Assembly (NCBI RefSeq): GCF_000379965.1
Contig: NZ_KB904327.1
Span: 558,001 to 622,000 of the forward strand
Source: Hoylesella nanceiensis DSM 19126 = JCM 15639
Lineage (GTDB): Bacteria > Bacteroidota > Bacteroidia > Bacteroidales > Bacteroidaceae
DNA: 64,000 nt
Direction: 5' to 3'
Part shown: piece after piece, positions 15,647 through 28,192 of the stretch
Position numbering within the stretch: the first letter of the stretch is position 1
Layout of the letters: each line of letters begins with the position of its first letter
Notes under the pieces: model-generated
Seen by the model: only the letters and a program-made list of their open reading frames with translations
Database searches by the model: none
What the model was told of the DNA's origin: nothing
Translations under genes and position numbers: made by a program

Positions 15647-15698
15647 CTGTGTAAAAGCTATCCTTTTATCAAACAAAAGCATTGAGATGGCATTGTAA
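15647..15698 (+). repeat. 22-bp degenerate tandem repeat array (copy B)
   Basis: About two degenerate units (GTGTAAAAGCTAT, CAAACAAAAGCATTG) of the chromosomal intergenic repeat family. It lies just left of the proposed left end of the mobile element and so marks native sequence. Confidence 0.5.
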
Positions 15699-15824
15699 CT
15701 AATCAAAGAAAATGAAGAAAGGTCGAAGTTGGAGTAAACTAACTGACAATGAGTGAGAAATGGAACGATTTGCATAAAAGTACTCTTTTCAAAAAGGGTA
15801 GGAATATGCAGATTTAGGCAAAAG

Positions 15825-15889
15825 TTCAGTTACTAAAGCATTACCTGATTTTGGGATAGGTAACGATGGAGTAATGTCCGGTAACTGAA
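15825..15889. repeat. Nested inverted repeats, candidate left attachment region
   Basis: Outer arms TTCAGTTAC (15825-15833) and GTAACTGAA (15881-15889) enclose TTACCTG (15841-15847) and AGGTAAC (15858-15864). The inner pair recurs at the right end (28070-28099). This arrangement is plausible for recombinase binding. Confidence 0.4.
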
Positions 15890-15945
15890 TTATTTTCGCT
15901 CGTGTGGCTGTTGCTGTGGTCGGCAGTTTTCTGCATAAGTGGGGA

Positions 15946-15987
15946 ACGCTTTAATTCGGGTAACTTTGTCCATAAAAATTAAAGCGT
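15946..15987 (+). promoter_or_regulatory. Integrase promoter: -7 box between perfect inverted repeats
   Basis: ACGCTTTAATT (15946-15956) and its exact complement (15977-15987) flank TAACTTTG (15961-15968), a -7 box. The integrase ATG follows immediately at 15988. The palindrome is likely an operator or, in RNA, a hairpin at the start of the message. Confidence 0.5.
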
Positions 15988-17220
15988 ATGAAAAATGAAA
16001 AGATGAAGGTGTTGCTCTACCTCAAAAAGAGCGGTTTGGACAAGTCGGGCAAGGCTCCGATTATGGGACGCATCACACTTGGAAGGAATGTTGCGCAGTT
16101 CAGTTGTAAACTCTCCTGCAATCCAGAGTTGTGGAATCCACGAGAGAGTAGGATGGACGGCAAGAGTCGTGAAGCGGTGGAGATAAACGTCAGGTTGGAG
16201 AGTTTGCTGTTGTCTGTCCAGTCGGCTTATCAGTCCCTGCTCTCCAAAGGTTGCCCGTTTGACGCAACCGAAGTGAAAGAGCTGTTCCAAGGGAGCGTAC
16301 AGACTCGCTGTATGCTTATCGAAAGGCTGGATATGCTCATCAAGGAGAAAGAAAGCCATATCGGTGTGGACATCAAGAAAGAGTCCCTGTCAAGTTATCA
16401 TTCTACGAGAAACCGCTTGCAGGAGTTCATTCAAAAGAGATACAAGGTTTCTGATTTGGCTTTCTCACAATTGACAGAGAACTTTATCTATGAGTTTCGC
16501 CAATACTACTTGGGAGTATGCGGTTTCCAAGAAAGTTCTTTCTTCGCAGTGGCATATCCCAGTTGAAAACAGTCTGTAAGTTGGCTTATCGCGAGGGGAT
16601 AGCCGATACTCTGATGTTTGACAAAGCCCATATAGAAAGGGGAGACAAGAAAATTCCAAAGGCACTTGACAGGGAAGCATTGGACAAGTTAAAGGTTCTC
16701 CGCCTTAATGACTTGGAGGAGGAAATGAAAACGGCAAGGGATATTTTCCTCTTTGCCTGTTATACAGGTGCTGCGTATTGCGATTTGATGGAACTTGGTA
16801 AATCTTCATCTTGTCCGTGATGACGAGGGAAGTTTGTGGCTGAAGTTCAACCGTCAAAAGACAGGCGTATTCTGCCGTGTCAAACTGCTGCCGGAAGCTA
16901 TTAGGCTGATGGAGAAACTTCGCAGCGATGAAAGGGAAACGCTGCTTCCATACATGAAGTACAAGAACTATCAGACCTGCCTGAAAGCCCTGCGGCTTCG
17001 TGCAGGTATATCATTTCCCTTTACCACGCATACCGCAAGGCACACTTTCGCAACGCTCATCACGCTTGAACAGGGCGTGCCCATTGAAACGGTGAGCAAG
17101 ATGCTCGGACATAGCAACGTGAGTATGACCGAGCGCTATGCAAAAGTAACACCACAGAAACTCTTTGAGGAATTTGACTGCTTCCTTTCTTTCACCGAAG
17201 ATATGCAACTGGCTATCTGA
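15988..17220 (+). pseudogene. Tyrosine recombinase (integrase) 1, two frameshifts
   Basis: Reads as one integrase of about 410 residues spread over two frames. Residues from 15988 give the arm-binding domain and SAM-like core-binding domain (SSYHSTRNRLQEFIQKRYK). A shift near 16500-16560 moves to another frame (SQLKTVCKLAYREG, then FACYTGAAYCDLMEL). A second shift near 16795 returns to the first frame for the catalytic part: KTG..CRVKL, the HTARHTFATL box, MLGHSNVSMTERYAK with the nucleophile Tyr. All catalytic boxes are still recognisable, so decay is recent. Its promoter is at 15946-15987. It lies just before a second integrase, a pairing common in Bacteroidota elements. Confidence 0.85.
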
Positions 17221-17285
17221 CCATTTGCTTTCATTTAACATAGTATTTAGTCAAATAAAAAACGGACAATTCAATCAAGACCATT

Positions 17286-18570
17286 ATGAGAAGTACATTC
17301 AAGATACTGTTCTATATCAACAGACAGAAGACAAAGGCGGACGGCAACACCGCCATTCTCTGCCGTATCACGATAGACGGAAAAAGCGCAGCCATTACCA
17401 CAGGCGAAGAGTGCCAGCCCTCCGAGTGAAACGCTAAACAAGGGCTGACAACCAACAAGAAGACAAACCAAAGAATCAATGAGTTTAAGGAACTTGTTGA
17501 GAGAACGTATAGAGATTTACTGAAAAAGGACGGAGTGGTAAGCGTGGAACTTATCAAGAACCGCTTGCAAGGCTTTGCCACCAATCCCACTACTCTCCTT
17601 GCCATGAGTAAGGCGGAACTGCAATCCGTCAAATAGTCAGTAGGTAAGTCAAAGGCTGCGGGAACTTATCAGAACCTGTATTACTCAGACAAGATGCTCA
17701 CGGAGTTTGTAAAGGACATAGGAAATGAGGATATACCCATTATTGCCATCACGGAGGATTTGTTTGATGAATACCGTTTCTTCTTGAAGAAGCGCGAATA
17801 TGCCGCATCGACTATTAACCGTTACCTTTGTTGGCTGAGCCGACTGATGTTTCGTGCGGTGAGCAGCAGGATTATCCGCTGCAATCCCTTTGAGAACGCC
17901 AAGTATGAGAATGAAGAAAAGAAGATACGCTTCCTGCAAAAGAGCGATGTAATGAAACTTATGGCAATGAAAATGAACGACAGAGAATCTGAGTTGGCAC
18001 GGCTGATGTTTGTTTTTTCCTGCTTTACAGGGTTGGCAATCGTCGATATGGAAAGTTTAGAATACAGCCATATCCAAACAGCAGCAGACGGACAGAAGTA
18101 TATCCGCAAGGAGCGTCAGAAGACAAAGGTTGAGTTTGTCGTACCGTTACACCCCATAGCTGAAACCATCATCAGCCATTGCAGGAATGCGCAGGCAGGA
18201 AACGAAGAACAGCAGACGGTGAAAGAAAAAGGCGACACAACCGCATTGCAGCCGTAGCGTGATGAGCAAGAACCTGTGCATTGTGGGCAAGGCTTGCGGT
18301 ATCAGACAGCGATTGTCGTACCATATTGCACGGCACACTTTCGGTACGATGAGCCTAAGTTCAGGCATACCTATTGAGAGCATAGCCAAGATGATGGGGC
18401 ACGCTTCCATATCAAGCGCTCAAGTTTATGCGCAGGTGACGGATAACAAGATTTCAGAGGATATGGACAGGCTCATCGCCAAGCAATCGGAAAAGGAGAA
18501 AGAAATAGTGGAGAGAGAGGCTTGTGAATCTTCGGATATTGTAACCTGTAAAATGGAGGAAACGGCATGA
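17286..18570 (+). pseudogene. Tyrosine recombinase (integrase) 2, two nonsense codons and a frameshift
   Basis: Starts MRSTFKILFYINRQKTK with an arm-binding beta-sheet domain. An in-frame TGA at 17427-17429 stands where the family has Trp (W-NAKQG). A TAG at 17634-17636 stands in VK-stop-SVGKSKAAGTYQ, where Gln is plausible. The central part is open (SAM-like core domain, then FSCFTGLAIVDMESL). A frameshift near 18250 moves to the frame holding the catalytic end: SYHIARHTFGTMSL, MMGHASISSAQVYAQVT, with the nucleophile Tyr. The 3' end overlaps the next small ORF by ATGA. Confidence 0.85.
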
Positions 18571-18943
18571 AGACAAACAACAATCCAAACATAAGAACAA
18601 ACACTGTCAATCATCGTAGTTATTTTGATTGGGGCAGCAAAATGCAAGTCATTCGCAAAGGAAACGGAGAGATAGCTATGACAGAGAGTGAACTTGTGAG
18701 GTTCTTCGGGGTTACATGGAGGAAACTCAACCATAGCTGCAAACGATAATAAAATCCTCCAACCTACATCCCGATGAGAGGGTTGCAGGTGAGGAAGTTA
18801 TCAAGAAGGGAAAGACCGTAAGTTATTCACCACTCTATCCCCTTCCTGTCATCATCGCCCTGTCCTTTCTATTGGACAGCATGGAAGCGCATTTATTCAG
18901 AAAGCAATCAATAAAAGATTGCAGACAGAGGCTTCCATTGTAA
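18567..18943 (+). pseudogene. Small element-encoded protein of unknown function, frameshifted
   Basis: Starts at the ATG overlapping the integrase 2 stop (ATGA). The first 60 residues (MKTNNNPNIRTN... GSKMQVIRKGNGEIAMTESELVRFFGVTWRKL) end at a stop near 18749. The -1 (+2) frame then continues coherently from about 18746 (SSNLHPDERVAGEEV... YPLPVIIALSFLLDSMEAHLF) to TAA 18941-18943. It originally encoded about 125 residues. The TESELVRFFGVTWRKL stretch could be a helix-turn-helix. I do not recognise the family; position suggests an accessory of integration or regulation. Confidence 0.55.
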
Positions 18944-19912
18944 CGCCAATCTTCCTATTGGACAATACCAAGAACTGATGAATATATTTCTTTTTCTTTC
19001 ACTGATTATATCTTTTACAACATAACTACAATAAGGAGTAAGACGGCAAAAGAGAAAGGATTGGCGTGTAGTCAAAAAATGACCATTCTCATTACTACGA
19101 CATGACTACATACTACGTCAATGACAGAACGAAGAATATGATTGTAATATATAAAGGTACATTCGTGTCGCACACGAATTCCATATCTAATTATTTTTTT
19201 ACAAGTTTCAGGAACTTTGATAATCTTTACACCCGATTATAACTATCACTAAGTGAATAGATTAGAGAGTAACAGATCTCGGCAGTATCCTTCCTTATAT
19301 AATATAAGGTGTATGTACAGCGCAGGGAAACAGAGGCTTTGCTGTAGATTCCCGTATGTATCTTTTACGGATTGTCATGTGAAAAATGCCGTGAATTTGT
19401 TGTCAGATTAATTTGGCAGTTCCAAATAACTTATTACTCTCTCATAGGGACACCATCGCAAACTCCTTCCATAAATATCTTACTATACGCGTGCGTGAAA
19501 AACTGCAAGAAGCCTTTGGATAGGGGAATTGCAAGATATTTCGTTGCCTGTTTTGTCATGCCTGTTGACCAAGTCTTTGCCAACGGATAATAGTATGGCA
19601 TTCAGTCATGAACCATAGAAGGCGATGAACTCAATGCGAAGAAGAATATCTTCTTCGACGAGGAAGAGGACTGGGGGAAACCGTGCTTCAATGCTTGGAA
19701 AGACTGATACAACATAATACCACGCTCCCCTTCACTGATGGTGAGGTGTGATTTTCCGTTTCAAGTAGAACAGATACTATTGACAACATTTATTAACTAA
19801 TCGAGAAGCGGTGCAAAAACAGACCTTGCCTGAATATACCTCAGTGGGGCACTACTTATACTTTAGTTGTTATTAACATTCCGCAGCCTTCCAGCACAAG
19901 ACAATCAAACCT
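18944..19912. other. Decayed non-coding stretch inside the element
   Basis: No convincing gene. It contains the 8-bp inverted repeat ATTCGTGT-CGC-ACACGAAT at 19162-19180. It also holds short coding-like scraps, for example LNAKKNIFFDEEEDWGKPC around 19630-19690 and FHKYLTIRVREKLQEAFG around 19465-19520. These could be remnants of lost genes, but I cannot assign them. Confidence 0.4.
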
Positions 19913-20360
19913 ATGGCATTCAACAAGAAAATGAAAGTAAACGACAAGTGGTATCCCAAGTTCGTTCTCGTTGGCCCCGTCATCACAACGGATCAAGTAG
20001 CAAAGTATTTGGCGGTCAAATTAATGGTATGCCCTTCCGATGTACGTGTTGTACTCACGACATTAAGCGGCGTGATGGACGACTATATGGCACAGAGGTG
20101 CTCGGTGAAGTTCGACGGAATCGATCGTCCTACTTCACGGCAGCAATGAACAATAACGGCATGCGCGTGCGCTTCATTCCCACAATCCGCTTCTGTGGGG
20201 TGGCAAGAGAAATACAGGTGGCGGTTGTCATGTTGTACGTGGACTGACGGATATGGACATCGAGTGGGAGGAATGGAAAGGCGAAGTCGACTCTGATGAT
20301 TCTGGCTCAACACCGAGCAATGAGAATATTCATCCTAGTGACTTTTTTATAAATCTCTAA
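19913..20360 (+). pseudogene. HU/IHF-like DNA-binding protein, two frameshifts
   Basis: The Bacteroidota HU-like protein can be followed through three frames. MAFNKKMKVNDKWYPKFV and VITTDQVAKYLAV... GVMDDYMAQ come first. Near 20130 a shift gives SYFTAAMNNNGMRVRFIPTIR. Near 20205 another shift gives VVRGLTDMDIEWEEWKG and an acidic/Ser-rich tail ending at TAA 20358-20360. An intact gene would give about 148 residues. Such proteins bind and bend DNA and often accompany mobile elements. The gene lies directly upstream of the cargo gene on the same strand. Confidence 0.7.
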
Positions 20361-20532
20361 TTTCTATGGCGCAAGGGTTGTTGGGGAATAGCATTTGCCC
20401 CTATTGTATTTAATTAATCAATGTTTCATTTTTACGATTATCTTATTTCTTGTATTTTATCTAAAATTAATATATTAATTCTGTGAGAACATTATTAGAA
20501 TTATTTGTATGTAAGAATTCGTTTATTTTCAT

Positions 20533-20540
20533 TATCTTTG
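20533..20540 (+). promoter_or_regulatory. -7 promoter box for the phosphoesterase-STAND gene
   Basis: TATCTTTG lies 22 nt upstream of the ATG. A TTTG at 20504-20507 is 25 nt upstream, longer than the usual 19-21 nt spacing. The cargo therefore probably has its own promoter and does not rely on the decayed upstream genes. Confidence 0.5.
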
Positions 20541-20562
20541 CAATAAATTAGATAAAAGCAAA

Positions 20563-23500
20563 ATGAGAATAATACATCTTTCCGATTTCCATTTAGATAA
20601 GTCTAAACTGACACCATTTAATAACATTGTATATCAATTAGAGTGCGCACTCAAAATGATTAATGAAGAAAAGAAAATAGATTTAATCATATTTACAGGT
20701 GACATGATTAACCAAGGCGGAAGAAGCTTTCCTACTATAGAAGACGCGTTCGAAGCTTTTAAAAAAATTTTCATTATTCGTTTATGTACTGCTATAAAGC
20801 TTCCTCTCAACCGTTTTATTTTCACGATGGGTAATCATGATGTCAGAAGGGACAAAGATAGTAAAGCTACAGAAATAGGCTTGCAATCTTTACTAAAAGA
20901 CTTGAATTCTGTTAGTGACATTATAGATAATGAAGATTCTGATAATAGCGTGAACAGAATTGTACCATTCAAGGAATTTGAAAAAGGATTTTATTCTGGT
21001 ATTTTAACGTCTGATGAGTATAAATTCTCAAAATTTTGTTCAAATTTTAAATTGCAAATAGAAGAACATCGCATTGGCATCTCTACATTAAATACGGCAT
21101 GGAGATGTTGGGATTCTGATAAGGATAGAGGAAATATCTGGATGGGACCATCACAAATTCGAAATTCTATTGAATTCCTTTCTGATTGTGATTTAAAGGT
21201 TGCGATTTCTCATCACAAATACGAATGGCTAAAAGCTGAAGAAAGATTGAATGACGAGCAATTGTTAGCGAAAAATTATGATATGTATTTTTGTGGACAT
21301 ACTCATAGTTCTACCAGTGATTATAAATTATCACCTAATGGAAATTCGTTCGAGGTTGTAGCACCTGGTATTCTATCTGACAATATAAATGAAACTAATT
21401 ACAACTATAAGAATGGTTTCGGATTAATAGATTACGACTTTGATGAAAGTAGAATTAGCACATCAGTTTTTAAACAAATAGATGGTGAAAGTTTTTGTAA
21501 AGATTTAAATTTTGGGAATAATGGTTTATGGACGATAGATATTCCTCAAGGCGAAATTGCTACTGTCGCTAAAAAGAGGAAAGAGGCACTAATGCTTGTT
21601 AGAGAGAACATTTCTGAAATGGATCGACATTTGTTAAGTTATAACACTAATTCCAATGCTCCCAAATCAATTCAGGAAATATTTGTTATGCCACATTTGA
21701 CCAAGATAGATAAATTGGAAGAGTCTGAGGGGGAATTCAAAGAGAGCACAATAGATAACTTTGAGGATATTATAAATTCTGATGACAACTTCATAATCTT
21801 TGGAATAAAAGAGGCTGGTAAGACTATTATGCTTGATAGAATACTGTTAGAATTTATTGAAAAAAGAAAAGATATTTTACCTGCACGTCTTGATTTTCAT
21901 GATATCAATAAGGATATTGTGCTGATTCTACGTAATATATGGGGAGTTAATAAGAGTAATTGTGAAAAAATATTAGCTAGTGGAAATGTTGTCATATTGA
22001 TTGATAATATTTCTTTCACTATGGACTCTCAAGATAGACTTTTTATTTTAAATGAATTTTGCAGAAAATATACAGGATGTAGATTCATAGGAACAAGTCT
22101 TGAAAAGAAATTTAGGGACCTTTCTTTTAATGCAGATTCTCTGTCTATAATAGATTATCAGCGGATTGAAATCGCGCAATTTAGAACAAAACAGATTAAA
22201 GAATTAGCAAGGAAATGGATTTCCAAAAAAGGTACAGGTATCAATGTGAAAAAACTCAATACTTTGTTAGAGGCCTTTTCACATTTTAATCTCCCTCGTA
22301 CCCCATTTTCTGTATCTATGTTTCTTTGGATTTTAGAACGTGAGGATTCATATAGAGCATTAAATAATTCTGTTTTAATTGAAAGTTTTATTATTGAATT
22401 ACTCAAAGCAAAAGATGGTAAATCTATTGGGGAACGTGCTATTTTTGATTATAGCAATAAACTCGTTCTCCTTTCGGAAATAGCAGAACAGATGTTAAGG
22501 GAAAATAAAGACAATTATGCTCTATCACACTCTTCTATTTTAAAATTTATAGAAAATTATTTAACAGCATTGGATTTTAACAACTTATATCAACCTTATA
22601 GAATCCTCAATGATTTGTTAGACACAGGGATTCTTATTGAAGACGGCTCTAACATCCGATTTAAATTTGCTTGTTTCTTTGAATTTATGTTGGCTAAGCG
22701 AATGGAGTTTAGTGCGGAATTCAAAAAAGAAGTATTGGATGAGAATAAGTTTTTCTATTTCTATAATGAAATCATATATTATACGGGTTTGCATCGTGGA
22801 GAAAAGGAAATTCTGCAAATGTTGATAGATCAATTAGAATATTACTATATAGATATAAATGATATTGTATTTAAAAGAGTGAATTCTATTGATGATTTTT
22901 TCAATGTAGACAGGAGTTTGGTTGAACAAATCACTGCAGATGATTTATTTAATGTCCTCCCTGAGAAAGAGACAGAAGAAGAAAAGAATATTAAAGTAGA
23001 TAGAAAATATGAGGTTCGATCAAATGGGCAAGATCAAAATATAATAAAAAGAAAAAATACCAATAAATTCGAAAATTATAATAAAATTCTTCTACTTACA
23101 ATGAATGTGTTAAGGAATTCTGAAGAGATCAAAGAGGAAAACATGAAGTATAACTCATACAAAATAATTTTGAGGAATTCGATTGCATATTGTATGCTGT
23201 ATAAATTGATATGTGAAAGTTTTGTTAGACATTCCAATAAATTTCCAAGTAATCGTATTGAAGAATTTATGTTTATCCTTCGTATTCTACCAAATATTCA
23301 TCAAGAATTATTAAGTAATAATCTTGGAACATTTAAATTATCAGAGGTCTTTTATAAGAAAGTAGAGGAAGATAATCTGAATATTACGAATGTCTCTGAA
23401 TTTGAGAGATTCCTTTCTGTCTTTATGTATGCAGATGTTAGAGGAGCTGAGTTTAAAAATGTTACTGCCCAATTTATCCAGAACTTTAATAAAAAGTACG

Positions 23501-23703
23501 TTGCAGACGCATGTTACCTAAAACTTTTATTCTATTATTATAAGTCATCAGAAAAGAATTTCGATGATTTCCTTTTAAAGAATCTTGTTAGCCTCTATAT
23601 AAGAGTAAATGAAAATAAAAATGGCAAAAAACGTATAGATAGAAGTAAAATAATCCAACAATTAAAAGATAGACGAAAAGAAATTCAAAGAGATACAAAG
23701 TAA
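20563..23703 (+). CDS. Calcineurin-like metallophosphoesterase fused to a STAND/NACHT-type NTPase
   Basis: A 1046-residue intact protein. Residues 1-330: calcineurin-like phosphoesterase with every metal motif present: D8-x-H10, G46-D47, G90-N91-H92-D93, H217-H218, G245-H246-x-H248. Residues ~400-715: P-loop NTPase with Walker A GIKEAGKT (414-421, K420), Walker B VVILID (476-481), a LPRTPFSVSMFL segment like the NACHT/STAND GxP helix, and an RFKFACFFEFMLAKR element near 698-712 like the winged-helix end of NACHT proteins. Residues ~715-1046: helical, Lys/Glu/Asn-rich, no repeat recognised; probable sensor. No signal peptide, so cytoplasmic. Likely a single-gene anti-phage protein in which ligand binding by the C-terminus triggers NTPase oligomerisation and phosphoesterase activity (inference). 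Much more AT-rich than the element backbone. Substrate unknown. Confidence 0.85.
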   Translation: MRIIHLSDFHLDKSKLTPFNNIVYQLECALKMINEEKKIDLIIFTGDMINQGGRSFPTIEDAFEAFKKIFIIRLCTAIKLPLNRFIFTMGNHDVRRDKDSKATEIGLQSLLKDLNSVSDIIDNEDSDNSVNRIVPFKEFEKGFYSGILTSDEYKFSKFCSNFKLQIEEHRIGISTLNTAWRCWDSDKDRGNIWMGPSQIRNSIEFLSDCDLKVAISHHKYEWLKAEERLNDEQLLAKNYDMYFCGHTHSSTSDYKLSPNGNSFEVVAPGILSDNINETNYNYKNGFGLIDYDFDESRISTSVFKQIDGESFCKDLNFGNNGLWTIDIPQGEIATVAKKRKEALMLVRENISEMDRHLLSYNTNSNAPKSIQEIFVMPHLTKIDKLEESEGEFKESTIDNFEDIINSDDNFIIFGIKEAGKTIMLDRILLEFIEKRKDILPARLDFHDINKDIVLILRNIWGVNKSNCEKILASGNVVILIDNISFTMDSQDRLFILNEFCRKYTGCRFIGTSLEKKFRDLSFNADSLSIIDYQRIEIAQFRTKQIKELARKWISKKGTGINVKKLNTLLEAFSHFNLPRTPFSVSMFLWILEREDSYRALNNSVLIESFIIELLKAKDGKSIGERAIFDYSNKLVLLSEIAEQMLRENKDNYALSHSSILKFIENYLTALDFNNLYQPYRILNDLLDTGILIEDGSNIRFKFACFFEFMLAKRMEFSAEFKKEVLDENKFFYFYNEIIYYTGLHRGEKEILQMLIDQLEYYYIDINDIVFKRVNSIDDFFNVDRSLVEQITADDLFNVLPEKETEEEKNIKVDRKYEVRSNGQDQNIIKRKNTNKFENYNKILLLTMNVLRNSEEIKEENMKYNSYKIILRNSIAYCMLYKLICESFVRHSNKFPSNRIEEFMFILRILPNIHQELLSNNLGTFKLSEVFYKKVEEDNLNITNVSEFERFLSVFMYADVRGAEFKNVTAQFIQNFNKKYVADACYLKLLFYYYKSSEKNFDDFLLKNLVSLYIRVNENKNGKKRIDRSKIIQQLKDRRKEIQRDTK

Positions 23704-23793
23704 ATGATATTCTACGAGTACAGAATGGGGAGAATTTTGTCAATAATGAGAAGTTGATAGAAAGCCCATGTTTTTAGGGAAATGTCACATTTT

Positions 23794-24099
23794 TTACATT
23801 TTTAATTTGCTGTTTTTAAAGTTTTTCTCCAAGATTCTTTCCAAATCCGACTCCTTATAGAGAATCTTCCCTGCAAACTGCGTGTAGGGGATAATCCTCC
23901 TGTCCCGATAGTCCTGCAAGGTGCGGGGGCTGATATACAGCCTCTCGCATACTTCCTCACCTGTGAGAAAGTGCTCACCGCCAAACAACAGCTTGTGTAT
24001 CTGTGCCACTTCCTTAATTCTCTTGCTTACTCCGCTGATAGCTGACAGCACCACCTGCATATCGCCAGCCTCCATATTCAAATCTCTTACGTGTTCCAT
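23794..24099 (-). CDS. Helix-turn-helix protein, excisionase/MerR-like
   Basis: A 101-residue protein. N-terminal helix (VLSAISGVSKRIKEVAQIHKLL), then a winged HTH: FLTGEEVCERLYISPRTLQDYRDRRIIPYTQFAGKILYKESDLERIL. This is the HTH_17/excisionase form found in Bacteroidota conjugative and mobilizable transposons, where such proteins act in excision or its control. It is intact and follows a paralogous HTH gene by 16 nt on the same strand, so the two form an operon transcribed towards the cargo gene (convergent with it). Confidence 0.8.
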   Translation of the reverse strand: MEHVRDLNMEAGDMQVVLSAISGVSKRIKEVAQIHKLLFGGEHFLTGEEVCERLYISPRTLQDYRDRRIIPYTQFAGKILYKESDLERILEKNFKNSKLKM

Positions 24100-24115
24100 A
24101 ACCTACGTGTTTATT

Positions 24116-24403
24116 TTATTTTTCCGTTTTTGATTTCTCTGTTTTGGTTTGGAGCAACCGTTCCACGTCCTCACGCTTGTAATAGCACTTATGCCCGATT
24201 TGGGAAAATGGCAGCACGCCTGTATCACGGTAGTGCTGCAAGGTTCGCTTACTGATGTTGAGTAGCCTGCACACATCACCATTGTGCAGCCACTCAGTGT
24301 GCCTGCTCTGTTCTCCAAATGCCTTGTGGCAGGTCTCGGCAAGATTGAGTATCTCGTACCTCAGCTTTGCCCAATTTGAATCCGTAATGATAAAATATCC
24401 CAT
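24116..24403 (-). CDS. Helix-turn-helix protein, excisionase-like (paralogue)
   Basis: About 95 residues from ATG 24403 (MGYFIITDSNWAKLRYEIL); an upstream in-frame start at 24454 would add 17 residues. HTH: WLHNGDVCRLLNISKRTLQHYRDTGVLPFSQIGHKCYYKREDVERLL. It shares the RTLQxYRD recognition helix with the downstream gene. The pair resembles the two small DNA-binding proteins of Bacteroides element excision operons (Xis2c/Xis2d type). A -7 box TACTTTTG lies at 24493-24500. Confidence 0.8.
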   Translation of the reverse strand: MGYFIITDSNWAKLRYEILNLAETCHKAFGEQSRHTEWLHNGDVCRLLNISKRTLQHYRDTGVLPFSQIGHKCYYKREDVERLLQTKTEKSKTEK

Positions 24404-24492
24404 AGTTTTATTGTTATTTTGTTTGTAATTCTGCCTTATTGGTATTGACAACACCTTTGCCTGTTCTGCGTTTCATTGTACGTTTATGCCAA

Positions 24493-24500
24493 CAAAAGTA
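24493..24500 (-). promoter_or_regulatory. -7 promoter box for the HTH pair
   Basis: TACTTTTG on the - strand, about 90 nt upstream of ATG 24403. A second match, TATCTTTG, lies further upstream at 24639-24646 (- strand). Confidence 0.4.
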
Positions 24501-24996
24501 TGATGAGTTTGTCATATTTCAAAGCAGCAGGGAACAGCAGGGAAACATCGGGAAGTAGAAGGAAAAGCTAACGCATTTTTTATCGGTAGCCGTTTGTACA
24601 TTCTTTCCCTGTTTTCTTCTTTCGCCGTCCGTCTGGTGCAAAGATAGGGCAGTGCATGTCCTATTCAATAATTCTTCGTTCAAGTGACACCTTGTAACAC
24701 TTTTAGTGTGGACAAACGCTACCCTATTTCTGTGCTGATTCTATTGTTTGCAGTATCGGTGCAGAATACTGCAAACGTGTGCAAAAGGTACGTTTCTATC
24801 TCTGCCTTTCCTTGCTATTTTATACCCAGTTTTGACTTAATTCGTGTTTAAATCAGTCATTTCTTTTCCTGTCTCCATAAAAATCCGTGCGAACTTTATT
24901 GCCAATGAACGCAACATTATGCAAGCACTCCCTGAATGCTTGGAACTTTGACATTCTCTTCCTAACTTCACTCTCGGAAAGAAAACCAAGCATATA
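24501..24996. other. No gene recognised
   Basis: About 500 bp between the HTH promoter and the VirE-type pseudogene. It holds a second -7-like box (24639-24646, - strand). I see no reading frame with family resemblance. Confidence 0.4.
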
Positions 24997-25509
24997 ATGA
25001 AAAGGAATGCAGATAAAGACAATTCTGTGGGCGAAAATAATACGCCCAAGCAAAGGAAGACTTCCTCCCCAAAAGGTGAGATAGAAACCTATCTCTCCTC
25101 CTATTATTAGTTCAGATATAACACGATATTAGGTAGAACCGAATACAGGGGCAAGGAGGATGCTCACTTCTCAAAAGTGGGGCGCTATGAAATCAACGCG
25201 CTCCGCAGGGAACTTGACAACGATGTGGGGATTATCACATCTTCCGACAACCTCTATTCAATTATTGAGAGCAGCTTCTCTCCACGTGTCAATCCCATAC
25301 AGGAGTATTTCAAAAGGTTGCCATTGTTGGATGTAAGTAGCAGTTCTCCCTTTTCACTGAAAGCCATTCCCCACTTGGCAAGTTTCGTGGCATCGGTAAA
25401 CGACAATGATTTTCTTACAGCCCCTACAGGAAGCAGACGATTTTTTGCTATTTGTTTAGCAGTTGCAGTAGTCGATGTAGTAAGCCTATGTCGTAAGTTA
25501 GTAGTATGA
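24997..25509 (+). pseudogene. VirE-family (primase/helicase-like) protein remnant with internal deletion
   Basis: From ATG 24997: a basic start, then YLSSYY, a TAG at 25108-25110, and FRYNTILGRTEYRGKEDAHF, LRRELDNDVGIITSSDNLYSIIESSF, NPIQEYFKRLP. This is the N-terminal portion of the VirE-family proteins of Bacteroidota elements. After about ten residues it jumps to PHLASFVASVNDNDFLTAPTGSRRFF, a block that in intact members lies more than a hundred residues further on. The central P-loop part is therefore deleted, and the tail after SRRF is out of register. It was probably involved in element replication or maintenance; it is now nonfunctional. Confidence 0.7.
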
Positions 25510-25632
25510 GTAAATACTACAAGGTGCGATTGATTATCAGTTCCTTAGCACAAAATAGTATGTAGTAAGAAGAAAGATGAAAAAGTTTGGAGAGAAAATC
25601 AAAACAGGTCAAACATAAAATGAGATAGAACT

Positions 25633-26154
25633 ATGGAAAAGAAAACAACAGGTAGCAAAAAAATGGAGAATACTAACCACGCCACCAACCAGTCTTTAGG
25701 ACTAAACCAAATTGAAGGCTCGTCAGAATATATCATTGCCGAACTTAAGTCAAGCAAAGCCTGATTTATTCAAGCCTTAAACAAGCAGGACACAGAGAAT
25801 ACCATGCACTCTGAGCCTGCACGGAATACTGAGAACGTAACCGTTCAGAAACACATCAGTGCCAAGATGAGAAAGAAAACATTCGAAGCCTACAAGCAAG
25901 CCAATCTTGTGCCGACCAAGTTAAACAACCGTAAGGCTGTCTATCTGAGCAGGGAGACACAGGAACGTGCCGACTTCATTGTGCGTAGGTTAGGCGACAG
26001 GGGCAGCAACCTTTCAAGCTTTGTTGAGAACATCGTTCGTCAGCATCTGGAGGAATATGGTGAAGACATGGAGAAGACTGTAAACCACAAGGAAAAGGTA
26101 GACGGTTTTCAGGGAAAAGGTCTACCTTTTCTTCTTCGGCTTAGTTCTCTATGA
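25633..26154 (+). pseudogene. DUF3408 family protein with in-frame TGA
   Basis: From ATG 25633 (MEKKTTGSKKMENTN) the frame reads to SSKA, a TGA at 25762-25764, then FIQALNKQDTENT and the conserved part: KAVYLSRETQERADFIVRRLGDRGSNLSSFVENIVRQHLEEYG, the ribbon-helix-helix-like core of DUF3408 proteins, which accompany mobilization genes in Bacteroidota transposons. An ATG at 25804 could still make a shortened protein holding the core. The last 20 residues (KVDGFQGKGLPFLLRLSSL) look unlike the family and may follow a shift. It is likely a relaxosome or partition accessory. Confidence 0.6.
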
Positions 26155-26255
26155 GAATGCCACGAACGCAGTTAGTCATAGAATGCACGGCATTCGTTTT
26201 TAGGCTATAAAACGTTTTAAGCGTATATAATTTGTTCGGTAGCATTGCAAGACGT

Positions 26256-26306
26256 CAGTTTGTACCCACAAACTGCTCTTGCTCCCCTCGTCGGACTGTC
26301 GGGGAG
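26256..26306. other. Candidate oriT
   Basis: A perfect palindrome CAGTTTGT-ACCC-ACAAACTG (26256-26275) is followed closely by CTCCCC...GGGGAG (26282-26287 and 26301-26306). It lies in the 245-bp gap directly upstream of mobC and the relaxase gene, where origins of transfer usually sit in these elements. Functional assignment is by position and structure only. Confidence 0.5.
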
Positions 26307-26399
26307 ATAAGACCGTAATCACTCCGTTCTCATCGGTCAGTATTCAAGAATTAAGAGACAATGAATCATCTATAATGATTAACTTTCAAGGAAGCTTAT

Positions 26400-26831
26400 A
26401 TGAACAGATATGATAAAAAGACAGCTAAATGGCAGCAACAGAATAAGGAAGAGCAGAAGATGAACAAGACAGAATTCATCAAGGTAAGATGCACCTTAGA
26501 GGAAAAGCAGCGTATCAAGTCTAAGGCGGAAAGTGCGGGGTGTAAGTTCTCCGATTACTGCCGTGAGATATTACTTAATGGAGAGGTAACAGCTGTTCCT
26601 AAGATGACCGAAAATGAGAGGGAAGCCATTTGTATACTTCAGCATACGGGCAGGTTCTATGGGCAGATTTCTAACCTTATCAAGGTTAAGGATGAAAGGT
26701 GGGTACATATCACTAAGAACCTTTCGCTATGTGCCAAAGAGGCATTTAAGAGATTCTACAACCCTCATTTTCGTGTAGACGATGAGATATATAAAGTCTT
26801 AAATATGAGAAGAGATGATAGGAAAGTGTAA
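26400..26831 (+). CDS. MobC-like relaxosome accessory protein
   Basis: A 143-residue protein with a ribbon-helix-helix-type start (KTEFIKVRCTLEEKQRIKSKAESAGCKFSDYCREILL) and a helical C-terminal part with an LQHTGRFYGQISNLIK segment, as in MobC/BmgB-type proteins that help the relaxase at oriT. It is intact. The relaxase ATG (26815) lies inside its last codons (17-nt overlap), the usual mobC-mobA coupling. A later Met (26461, MNKTEF) is an alternative start. Confidence 0.8.
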   Translation: MNRYDKKTAKWQQQNKEEQKMNKTEFIKVRCTLEEKQRIKSKAESAGCKFSDYCREILLNGEVTAVPKMTENEREAICILQHTGRFYGQISNLIKVKDERWVHITKNLSLCAKEAFKRFYNPHFRVDDEIYKVLNMRRDDRKV

Positions 26832-27894
26832 GGCGATAGCGCATGGCAGCACGGCTTTAGACTATATTTTCAGCGAGGGCAAACTCGGCAGTCGGCTTGC
26901 CTTACACAATCTTTGCAGCAGAGAGCCAAAGACTATCTATGAGGAAATGAAAGTGGTCAGCAACTATAACAGCCGTTGCAGGAACGAGTTTCTCCGTATC
27001 GAAATAGGCATCGCACCGCAGGACGAGAAAAGATTGTCTGTATCCGAGCTTATGGGAATAGCTCATTTGTTTGCCAAGCGAATGGGACTTGACAACCACC
27101 AATGGGTAGCGGTAACGCACAAGGACACCGATAATAGACACATTCACATTATTGCCAACCGTATCAGCCTTTACGGAGAGGTCTATGATACCACCTTTGT
27201 GAGCAACAAGGCAGAGAGAGTGGCGGAGGAAATAAGCAGAGAGAAAGGCTCGACCATCGCAAAGGAGGTCAAGGCGGAGAAGAAATATCAAAAGACAAAA
27301 GCCAGTCCAATGAGAGAGCAAACAAAGAAAGAGGTACAGCAAATCTGTTATTCCCTGCTTGACAAGTACAAAGGAACAGGTATCACAGGGCATTCCATGT
27401 TCCTCTACGACCTTAACAAGAGTGGTGTAACCATCGAACGCTTGAAGAACAAGTAGGGCAATGTCTATGGCTTGAAATTCTCATACGCAGGACAATCCTT
27501 CAAGGCTTCCAAGATAGGCAGGGAGTTCGGCTACCGTTCCTTGCAGAAGAACTTTGAGATTGCCAATAAAGCCGAAACAAAGGAGACGATAACAAAAGCT
27601 CACACATTGGCACACGAGACTACAAAAGATAAAACCCACTCAGACACAAGCTATCAACTTGTTCCTCCCAGTCGTTCGTACATACCACCTACAAAAGCAA
27701 ACGAAAGTTCATCTATTGCACAAGCCGTAGGAAATGTAGCAAGCACCGCCTTGAAAGCAGCCGAAGAAATGATTTCGGGAGCAGGTAGACTTATCAATCC
27801 ACAGACACACGGTGATGATTATGCCGAGATGGCTTGGCAACGAAAACTCAGAAGCCAAGCCAAGAAAAAGAAGAAAAGAGGAAGAAGTATATAA
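26815..27894 (+). pseudogene. Relaxase/mobilization nuclease interrupted by one amber codon
   Basis: A 359-codon frame with a single TAG at 27454-27456. Before it: the relaxase domain with KCKAIAHGSTALDYIF, SNYNSRCRNEF, the histidine motif HKDTDNRHIHIIANRI (HxDxDNxHxH type, metal-binding) and YDTTF. After it: GNVYGLKFSYAGQSFKASKIGREFGYRSL and a basic C-terminus (KKKKKRGRS). The sequence around the stop (LKNK-stop-GNVYGL) fits a Gln codon in family members, so CAG to TAG is likely. A truncated 213-residue protein keeps the catalytic histidines and might still nick DNA. It would mobilize the element with help from a coresident conjugative element. Confidence 0.8.
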
Positions 27895-27963
27895 CAGCTC
27901 CTATCTATTTCCAATCGCTCAAAAACTCAAGGATGAAGTAAAAGAGCGAAAATTTTATCAAAA

Positions 27964-28017
27964 ACGCTTGTTATTCAAAGCAAATTATTATCTTTGCAAA
28001 CAGAATAACAAGCGTTC
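27964..28017. repeat. 14-bp inverted repeat around a -7 box at the right end
   Basis: AACGCTTGTTATTC (27964-27977) and its exact complement (28004-28017) surround a TATCTTTG box at 27991-27998 and an inner GCAAA/TTTGC pair. The layout mirrors the integrase promoter at 15946-15987 (arms also begin ACGCTT). No gene follows it. Confidence 0.5.
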
Positions 28018-28068
28018 TTTGTTGATGTAGAAACATGCGACAGAAAGCACTTCGCTCGTTTCCAAATC

Positions 28069-28099
28069 GTTACCTGTTTAGTTTGTATCACAAGGTAAC
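28069..28099. repeat. Inverted repeat, candidate right attachment region
   Basis: GTTACCTG (28069-28076) and AGGTAAC (28093-28099) repeat the TTACCTG/AGGTAAC pair seen at the left end (15841-15864), with a 16-nt instead of 10-nt centre. TTCGCTCGT also occurs at both ends (15895-15903 and 28051-28059). Confidence 0.35.
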
Positions 28100-28138
28100 T
28101 TCTTCTTTCTCAATTAGATACATTTTAAGAATTATCTT

Positions 28139-28192
28139 ACCATGTAAAAGCATTTCTTTTACACTATAAAACGATAGCTATTACTCTCAACA
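28139..28192 (+). repeat. 22-bp degenerate tandem repeat array (copy C)
   Basis: About 2.5 units (CATGTAAAAGCATTTC, CACTATAAAACGATAGC, ...) of the chromosomal repeat family. It lies just right of the proposed right end of the element. Confidence 0.55.

Follow-up and report, generated by a model that had tools for sequence, protein, structure and literature searches.

In the available text of PMC13092281 (DeWeirdt, Mahoney and Laub, Science 2026), the DS-8 system consists of one metallophosphatase-NACHT protein, which protects E. coli and loses protection when either domain is mutated, and bacterial defence is connected with human SMPDL3A. In the available portions of two further sources, calcineurin-like phosphoesterases are listed with the domains that can be interchanged at the N-terminus of STAND and other multidomain proteins (PMC8195603) and are predicted nucleotidyl phosphodiesterase effectors in other conflict systems (PMC7159879). 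PDCs are candidates from guilt-by-embedding and mostly unvalidated, according to the available text of PMC12988326. Here, a metallophosphoesterase-NACHT (MPE-NACHT) gene is described from a 64,000-nucleotide stretch of Hoylesella nanceiensis DSM 19126 = JCM 15639 (contig NZ_KB904327.1, positions 558,001 to 622,000), hereafter the window. We put at roughly 0.77 the probability that it encodes a PDC-S60/DS-8-type defence protein, a single-gene STAND anti-phage (anti-mobile-element) system. A defence role is likely.

Relationship to PDC-S60 and DS-8

The first-pass annotation could not assign the gene to a named system, and that no longer holds. The protein matches PADLOC model PDLC05051 (PDC-S60) end to end (E 1.1e-119, 399 bits; protein 1-1040, profile 1-1021 of 1027), and profile comparison and a tree place it as a sister of DS-8. 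It shares with PDC-S60 a single gene, an identical domain order and a near full-length match, but is diverged, scoring 399 bits against 1233 bits for relative L081. At E up to 1, PADLOC listed the window protein only for PDC-S60 and, weakly, PDC-S10. No paper naming PDC-S60 was found in the literature searched.

NCBIfam model NF053861 (DS8_antiphage) matches residues 5-846. Proteins above its cut-off were found in 3 of 296 genomes sampled in the phylum. Two proteins above the cut-off, L078 and L080, have PDLC05050 as best PADLOC match (E 2.5e-131 and 1.3e-65, respectively); because PDLC05050 is also named PDC-S60, PADLOC puts the window type and the DS-8 type under one candidate name. Alignment of the query-side set to the DS-8 clade with hhalign gave a probability of 100 and E 3.8e-47 over 941 columns. 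A 28-row alignment of the query and 27 hand-picked relatives was used for residue comparison. The tree of these 28 rows gives the DS-8 clade (5 rows, three above the NF053861 cut-off; L074 and L075 were not scored on it) support of 100/100. The query and L068 form a pair (100/100) inside a six-row set (100/99), and the query falls in a 16-row set without the DS-8 clade (82/87). Judged from these alignments, the window protein is a diverged sister of experimentally validated DS-8.

Like DS-8, it is one protein with an N-terminal metallophosphatase (catalytic residues intact), a NACHT domain and an SMPDL3A-like fold, and the two are homologous over their full length by profile comparison. It differs in lying in a separate clade below the equivalog cut-off, and in its C-terminus, which is 11-15% identical. 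It also differs at the last metal motif, where GHEH occurs in 5/5 DS-8-clade rows and 0/23 others, the window gene among them.

Other systems resemble it in part. Avs and bNACHT proteins have an effector-NTPase-sensor plan, Avs with an Avs-type NTPase and a large tetratricopeptide repeat sensor. The window protein shares the three-part plan, with a predicted sensor, and has a Foldseek match to Avs4 (8dgf, E 6e-6), but their N-terminal effector is another than its phosphoesterase. A confident PDB fold match was sought for its C-terminus and none was found. The literature searched held no paper containing both 'bNACHT' and 'phosphoesterase'. The first protein of DS-9 (NCBIfam NF053862) matches residues 2-102 weakly (E 2.2e-5), but DS-9 has two genes, the second a HAD phosphatase, in the available text of PMC13092281. 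The predicted calcineurin-STAND conflict proteins of Aravind and colleagues carry a calcineurin-like phosphoesterase as N-terminal domain or effector (PMC8195603, PMC7159879), but the architectures in the available text are bDLD3/EAD10, TRADD-N and GAP1 ones, not the single-gene form.

Domains, conserved residues and predicted mechanism

The open frame, domain profiles, fold and residues confirm the earlier proposal of one intact 1046-residue phosphoesterase-NTPase protein (Table 1). The N-terminal metallophosphoesterase matches Pfam PF00149 (E 1.6e-15). By structure comparison, its fold is like that of SMPDL3A-like cyclic nucleotide phosphodiesterases. The family profile matches NLRC4 over positions 362-634. 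The predicted structure contains a NACHT/STAND fold, with a P-loop NTPase, a STAND-type helical/winged-helix extension and an all-helical C-terminus, as the first-pass annotation had anticipated. The FxF...EfmlA-type motif of the residue ~621-745 arm is presumably a STAND motif, and the equivalent stretch of L068 matches Pfam nSTAND_NTPase4. Predicted alone, residues 700-1046 form all helices, with a predicted local distance difference test (pLDDT) score of 79.4.

Residues D8, H10, D47, N91, H92, D93, N177, H217, H246 and H248 are identical in 28/28 rows, and H218 is kept in 27/28. All residue numbers given earlier for the catalytic and Walker sites are correct. K420 of Walker A is kept in 21/28 rows and replaced by R in three and L in four. 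Relatives L103:9980-13114, L105:9977-12967, L094:9980-13171 and L071:7605-10628 combine an intact phosphoesterase with a degenerate Walker A (L for K), and possibly work without ATP hydrolysis.

The metal-site residues, NACHT NTPase fold, DS-8-type full-length homology and patchy distribution with mobile-DNA relatives are direct observations, and the mechanism proposed here is drawn from DS-8 and STAND proteins in general. At rest, the NACHT module would be closed and nucleotide-bound. A phage product would be bound by the helical C-terminus, and the NACHT domain would swap nucleotide and oligomerize. The clustered N-terminal phosphoesterases would turn active and hydrolyse a phosphodiester substrate (nucleotide, cyclic nucleotide or nucleic acid), and phage replication or the infected cell would be stopped. 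The C-terminus is the least conserved region in L116, L087 and L088 (22-26%, against 32-35% for the phosphoesterase), as expected of a putative sensor. At 27%, however, the NTPase of L087 and L088 barely exceeds their C-terminus. In L068, the closest relative, all regions are 45-48% alike, which argues against C-terminal sensing.

The phosphoesterase of the same architecture could instead be chiefly an SbcD/Mre11-like nuclease acting on nucleic acid of the phage or the host, and not a phosphodiesterase of nucleotides or cyclic nucleotides, a possibility we take seriously while doubting it. SbcD/Mre11 chains are among the sequence matches of the profile, and a related N-terminal PADLOC model labelled 'Effector, Endonuclease' matches L068, L065, L066, L067, L072 and L069. 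That model has no match in L081, L078 or L080, nor, at E up to 1, in the window protein. The fold matches listed comprise nucleotide phosphodiesterases, sphingomyelinase-like enzymes and acid phosphatases, and not SbcD/Mre11, a likeness of fold that does not decide the substrate.

The phosphoesterase may be a portable defence effector on several unrelated sensors, and the window clade may answer a different phage signal from DS-8, perhaps with a different substrate; we hold this tentatively, at a little under even odds. The sensors would be NACHT (window and DS-8 clades), a PD-Lambda-4-like NTPase, a repeat protein (L072) and a GHKL/HSP90-like ATPase (L086). For the window clade, the proposal leans on the non-E residue at the GHEH site and the barely similar C-terminus. 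Proteins L069:4437-8705 and L070:6088-10356 (same family) and L076:8983-13206 (same order) are 1407-1422 residues long, with a phosphoesterase 34-37% identical to that of the window protein and a different NTPase and C-terminus. The remainder of L069 matches PADLOC PD-Lambda-4_A (E 9e-16, residues 391-887); L070 and L076 were aligned with L069, and the hidden Markov model (HMM) test covered L069. These three are a candidate effector-swapped defence family. In L072 a related phosphoesterase precedes or adjoins repeats (NCBIfam FlcA_CTERM match) in one protein, and L086:6136-9837 encodes a 1233-residue protein with a calcineurin-like phosphoesterase and a GHKL/HSP90-like ATPase (HATPase) domain.

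Relatives, their neighbourhoods and the mobilizable element

Matches at E 1e-10 were found in 4 of 399 same-family genomes. Whole-length matches are limited to two, the window genome and G1011 (47%), because G820 and G775 match in the phosphoesterase alone (residues 1-330) and differ at the C-terminus. A tblastn search covering 72,556 plasmid records found three relatives, in Klebsiella, Sphingomonas and Sinorhizobium; plasmid DNA of similar sequence was not found, and tblastn of annotated phage records gave no relative. A viral-contig scan gave 8 loci. Pfam confirmed phage-type genes near L120 (terminase, lysozyme), L117 (tail protein) and L118 (integrase), and none of the other neighbours tested near L116 and L122 matched Pfam. 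An alignment-based scan of genome contigs gave at least 29 loci, and a scan for close relatives with a single protein as query gave none. The homologues do not resemble housekeeping genes of the core chromosome, given the few whole-length matches, the relatives on plasmids and viral contigs and the restriction-modification genes beside some.

Loci L119:3311-6493, L120:9992-13144 and L121:7977-11129 form a phosphoesterase-NACHT subfamily on viral contigs that, from the HMM-tested neighbours of L120, resembles a prophage cargo gene. Genome tallies of 155/393 and 135/296 were rejected as gene counts. Most of the matches listed in them covered just the first ~90-260 positions, being generic phosphoesterases, or an NTPase stretch alone.

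Twenty-one neighbourhoods were read from annotations and open frames, with HMM tests on selected genes; two contigs were short. Restriction-modification genes occur in 5/21, which is supportive but, lacking a background rate, not statistical. HsdM and HsdS lie directly upstream and AbiEi/AbiEii downstream of L088 (Flavobacterium frigoris). HsdR, HsdM and HsdS precede the gene in L075, and an HsdR piece is downstream in L078 (both DS-8 clade). L118 has nearby a C5 methyltransferase and a weak match to a type II enzyme, and genes annotated as cytosine methyltransferase, HNH and Vsr lie ~4-6.5 kb from L066. Among neighbourhoods where no restriction-modification was seen, an annotated toxin-antitoxin pair of VapBC type accompanies L067, a distant gene in that of L081 matches Argonaute-associated models in part, and L120 has an apparent phage adenine methyltransferase (by eye).

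The MPE-NACHT gene occupies the variable cargo slot of a mobilizable element that has decayed (Table 1). Two related elements align further on the right, to 28163 and 28183, and no att repeat above chance was found. The 9 related stretches come from a second copy elsewhere in the window genome and from six other genomes, in a search of 201. Parts of both flanks are covered by seven of the 9; for L129 (cut by a contig end) and L130 the alignment is confined to the right side. Slot contents were read by eye and listed for 8 of the 9. They include arsenic genes (L126), efflux genes (L128, L133), S-adenosylmethionine (SAM)-synthetase and radical-SAM genes (L125, L127), and PrimPol- and UvrD-like genes with PADLOC matches (L131). 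Given such varied cargo, this is a cargo slot rather than one dedicated to defence. The MPE-NACHT gene has 29.9% GC content, the rest of the element ~43% and the flanks 36-37%. The mobilizable-element location proposed earlier stands; the element itself is decayed, and the cargo of its relatives is mostly non-defence-looking. The location fits defence cargo and does not prove it.

The second element in the same genome (L133, G000:C1 about 178000-196500) carries efflux-type cargo, by eye, where the window has the MPE-NACHT gene. Upstream of the gene, overlapping frames at 19867-20249 look in translation, by eye, like a broken HU-like DNA-binding gene. An own promoter had been proposed. A possible -7 element, TATCTTTG, is present, but no -33 partner was found at the spacing searched and no convincing promoter was recognised.

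Table 1. Features of the MPE-NACHT gene and its element, in window coordinates
Feature	Position	Strand	Size or basis
MPE-NACHT gene, PDC-S60/DS-8-like	20563..23703	+	1046 residues
Calcineurin-like metallophosphoesterase, predicted effector, residues 1-330	20563..21552	+	
NACHT/STAND P-loop NTPase, residues ~370-620	21670..22422	+	NLRP3/NLRC4/NOD2 fold matches; NLRC4 by family profile
Walker A, GIKEAGKT, residues 414-421	21802..21825	+	
Walker B, VVILID, residues 476-481 (ends at D481)	21988..22005	+	
Helical/winged-helix arm, residues ~621-745, FxF...EfmlA-type motif	22423..22797	+	Motif conservation
All-helical C-terminus, predicted sensor, residues ~746-1046	22798..23700	+	Region identities; structure prediction
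TATCTTTG, possible Bacteroidetes -7 element	20533..20540	+	Sequence
Decayed mobilizable element, approximate extent (~12.4 kb)	15690..28139	.	Alignment limits common to several related elements
Variable cargo slot	19144..23799	.	No match of at least 120 nt in any of 9 related stretches
Tyrosine integrase 1, broken, with fragments in different frames	15988..17220	+	
Tyrosine integrase 2, broken	17694..18570	+	
Two HTH_17 (excisionase-type) genes	23794..24454	-	
DUF3408 gene and NikA-like mobilization gene	25804..26831	+	
MobA/VirD2-type relaxase, stop codon inside	26815..27894	+	Second piece alone without Pfam match

Alternatives and significance

The anti-phage role suggested by the first-pass annotation is supported by the DS-8-type homology, the PDC-S60 match and the patchy distribution. 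Several points weigh against it. The window protein scores 191.6 bits on NF053861, below the cut-off of 790 bits, and is ~11-21% identical to DS-8-clade proteins by region; function is thus transferred over a long distance. The Walker A lysine is missing in 7/28 rows, so dependence on the NTPase may not be universal. No restriction-modification system was recognised in 16/21 neighbourhoods. The location alone is weak evidence because related slots mostly hold non-defence-looking cargo, and, the element being decayed, the window copy may be a relic. We know of no phage assay on the window gene or its clade.

A role outside phage defence, as the element's own conflict or regulatory protein (e.g. 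for rival-element exclusion) or as general cargo, is unlikely. The arsenic, efflux, SAM-synthetase and other cargo read by eye in related slots would suit it, as would the relatives on plasmids and viral contigs, but the full-length homology to validated DS-8-type anti-phage proteins and the restriction-modification and AbiE genes adjoining some relatives speak for defence. A non-functional relic, intact-looking and unexpressed, is the least probable explanation: both integrases and the relaxase are broken and no convincing promoter was found, but the reading frame of 1046 codons and all catalytic residues remain intact amid those broken genes, which would fit selection on the gene itself.

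As an anti-phage protein of the PDC-S60/DS-8 kind, the window protein would extend a validated defence type by a second clade that is deeply diverged, on a Bacteroidota mobile element. The metal-site residues, constant across both clades, and the more variable C-terminus help to tell effector from sensor. A cyclic or free nucleotide as substrate would strengthen the link to human SMPDL3A that the DS-8 authors propose for bacterial defence; nucleic acid as substrate would weaken it.
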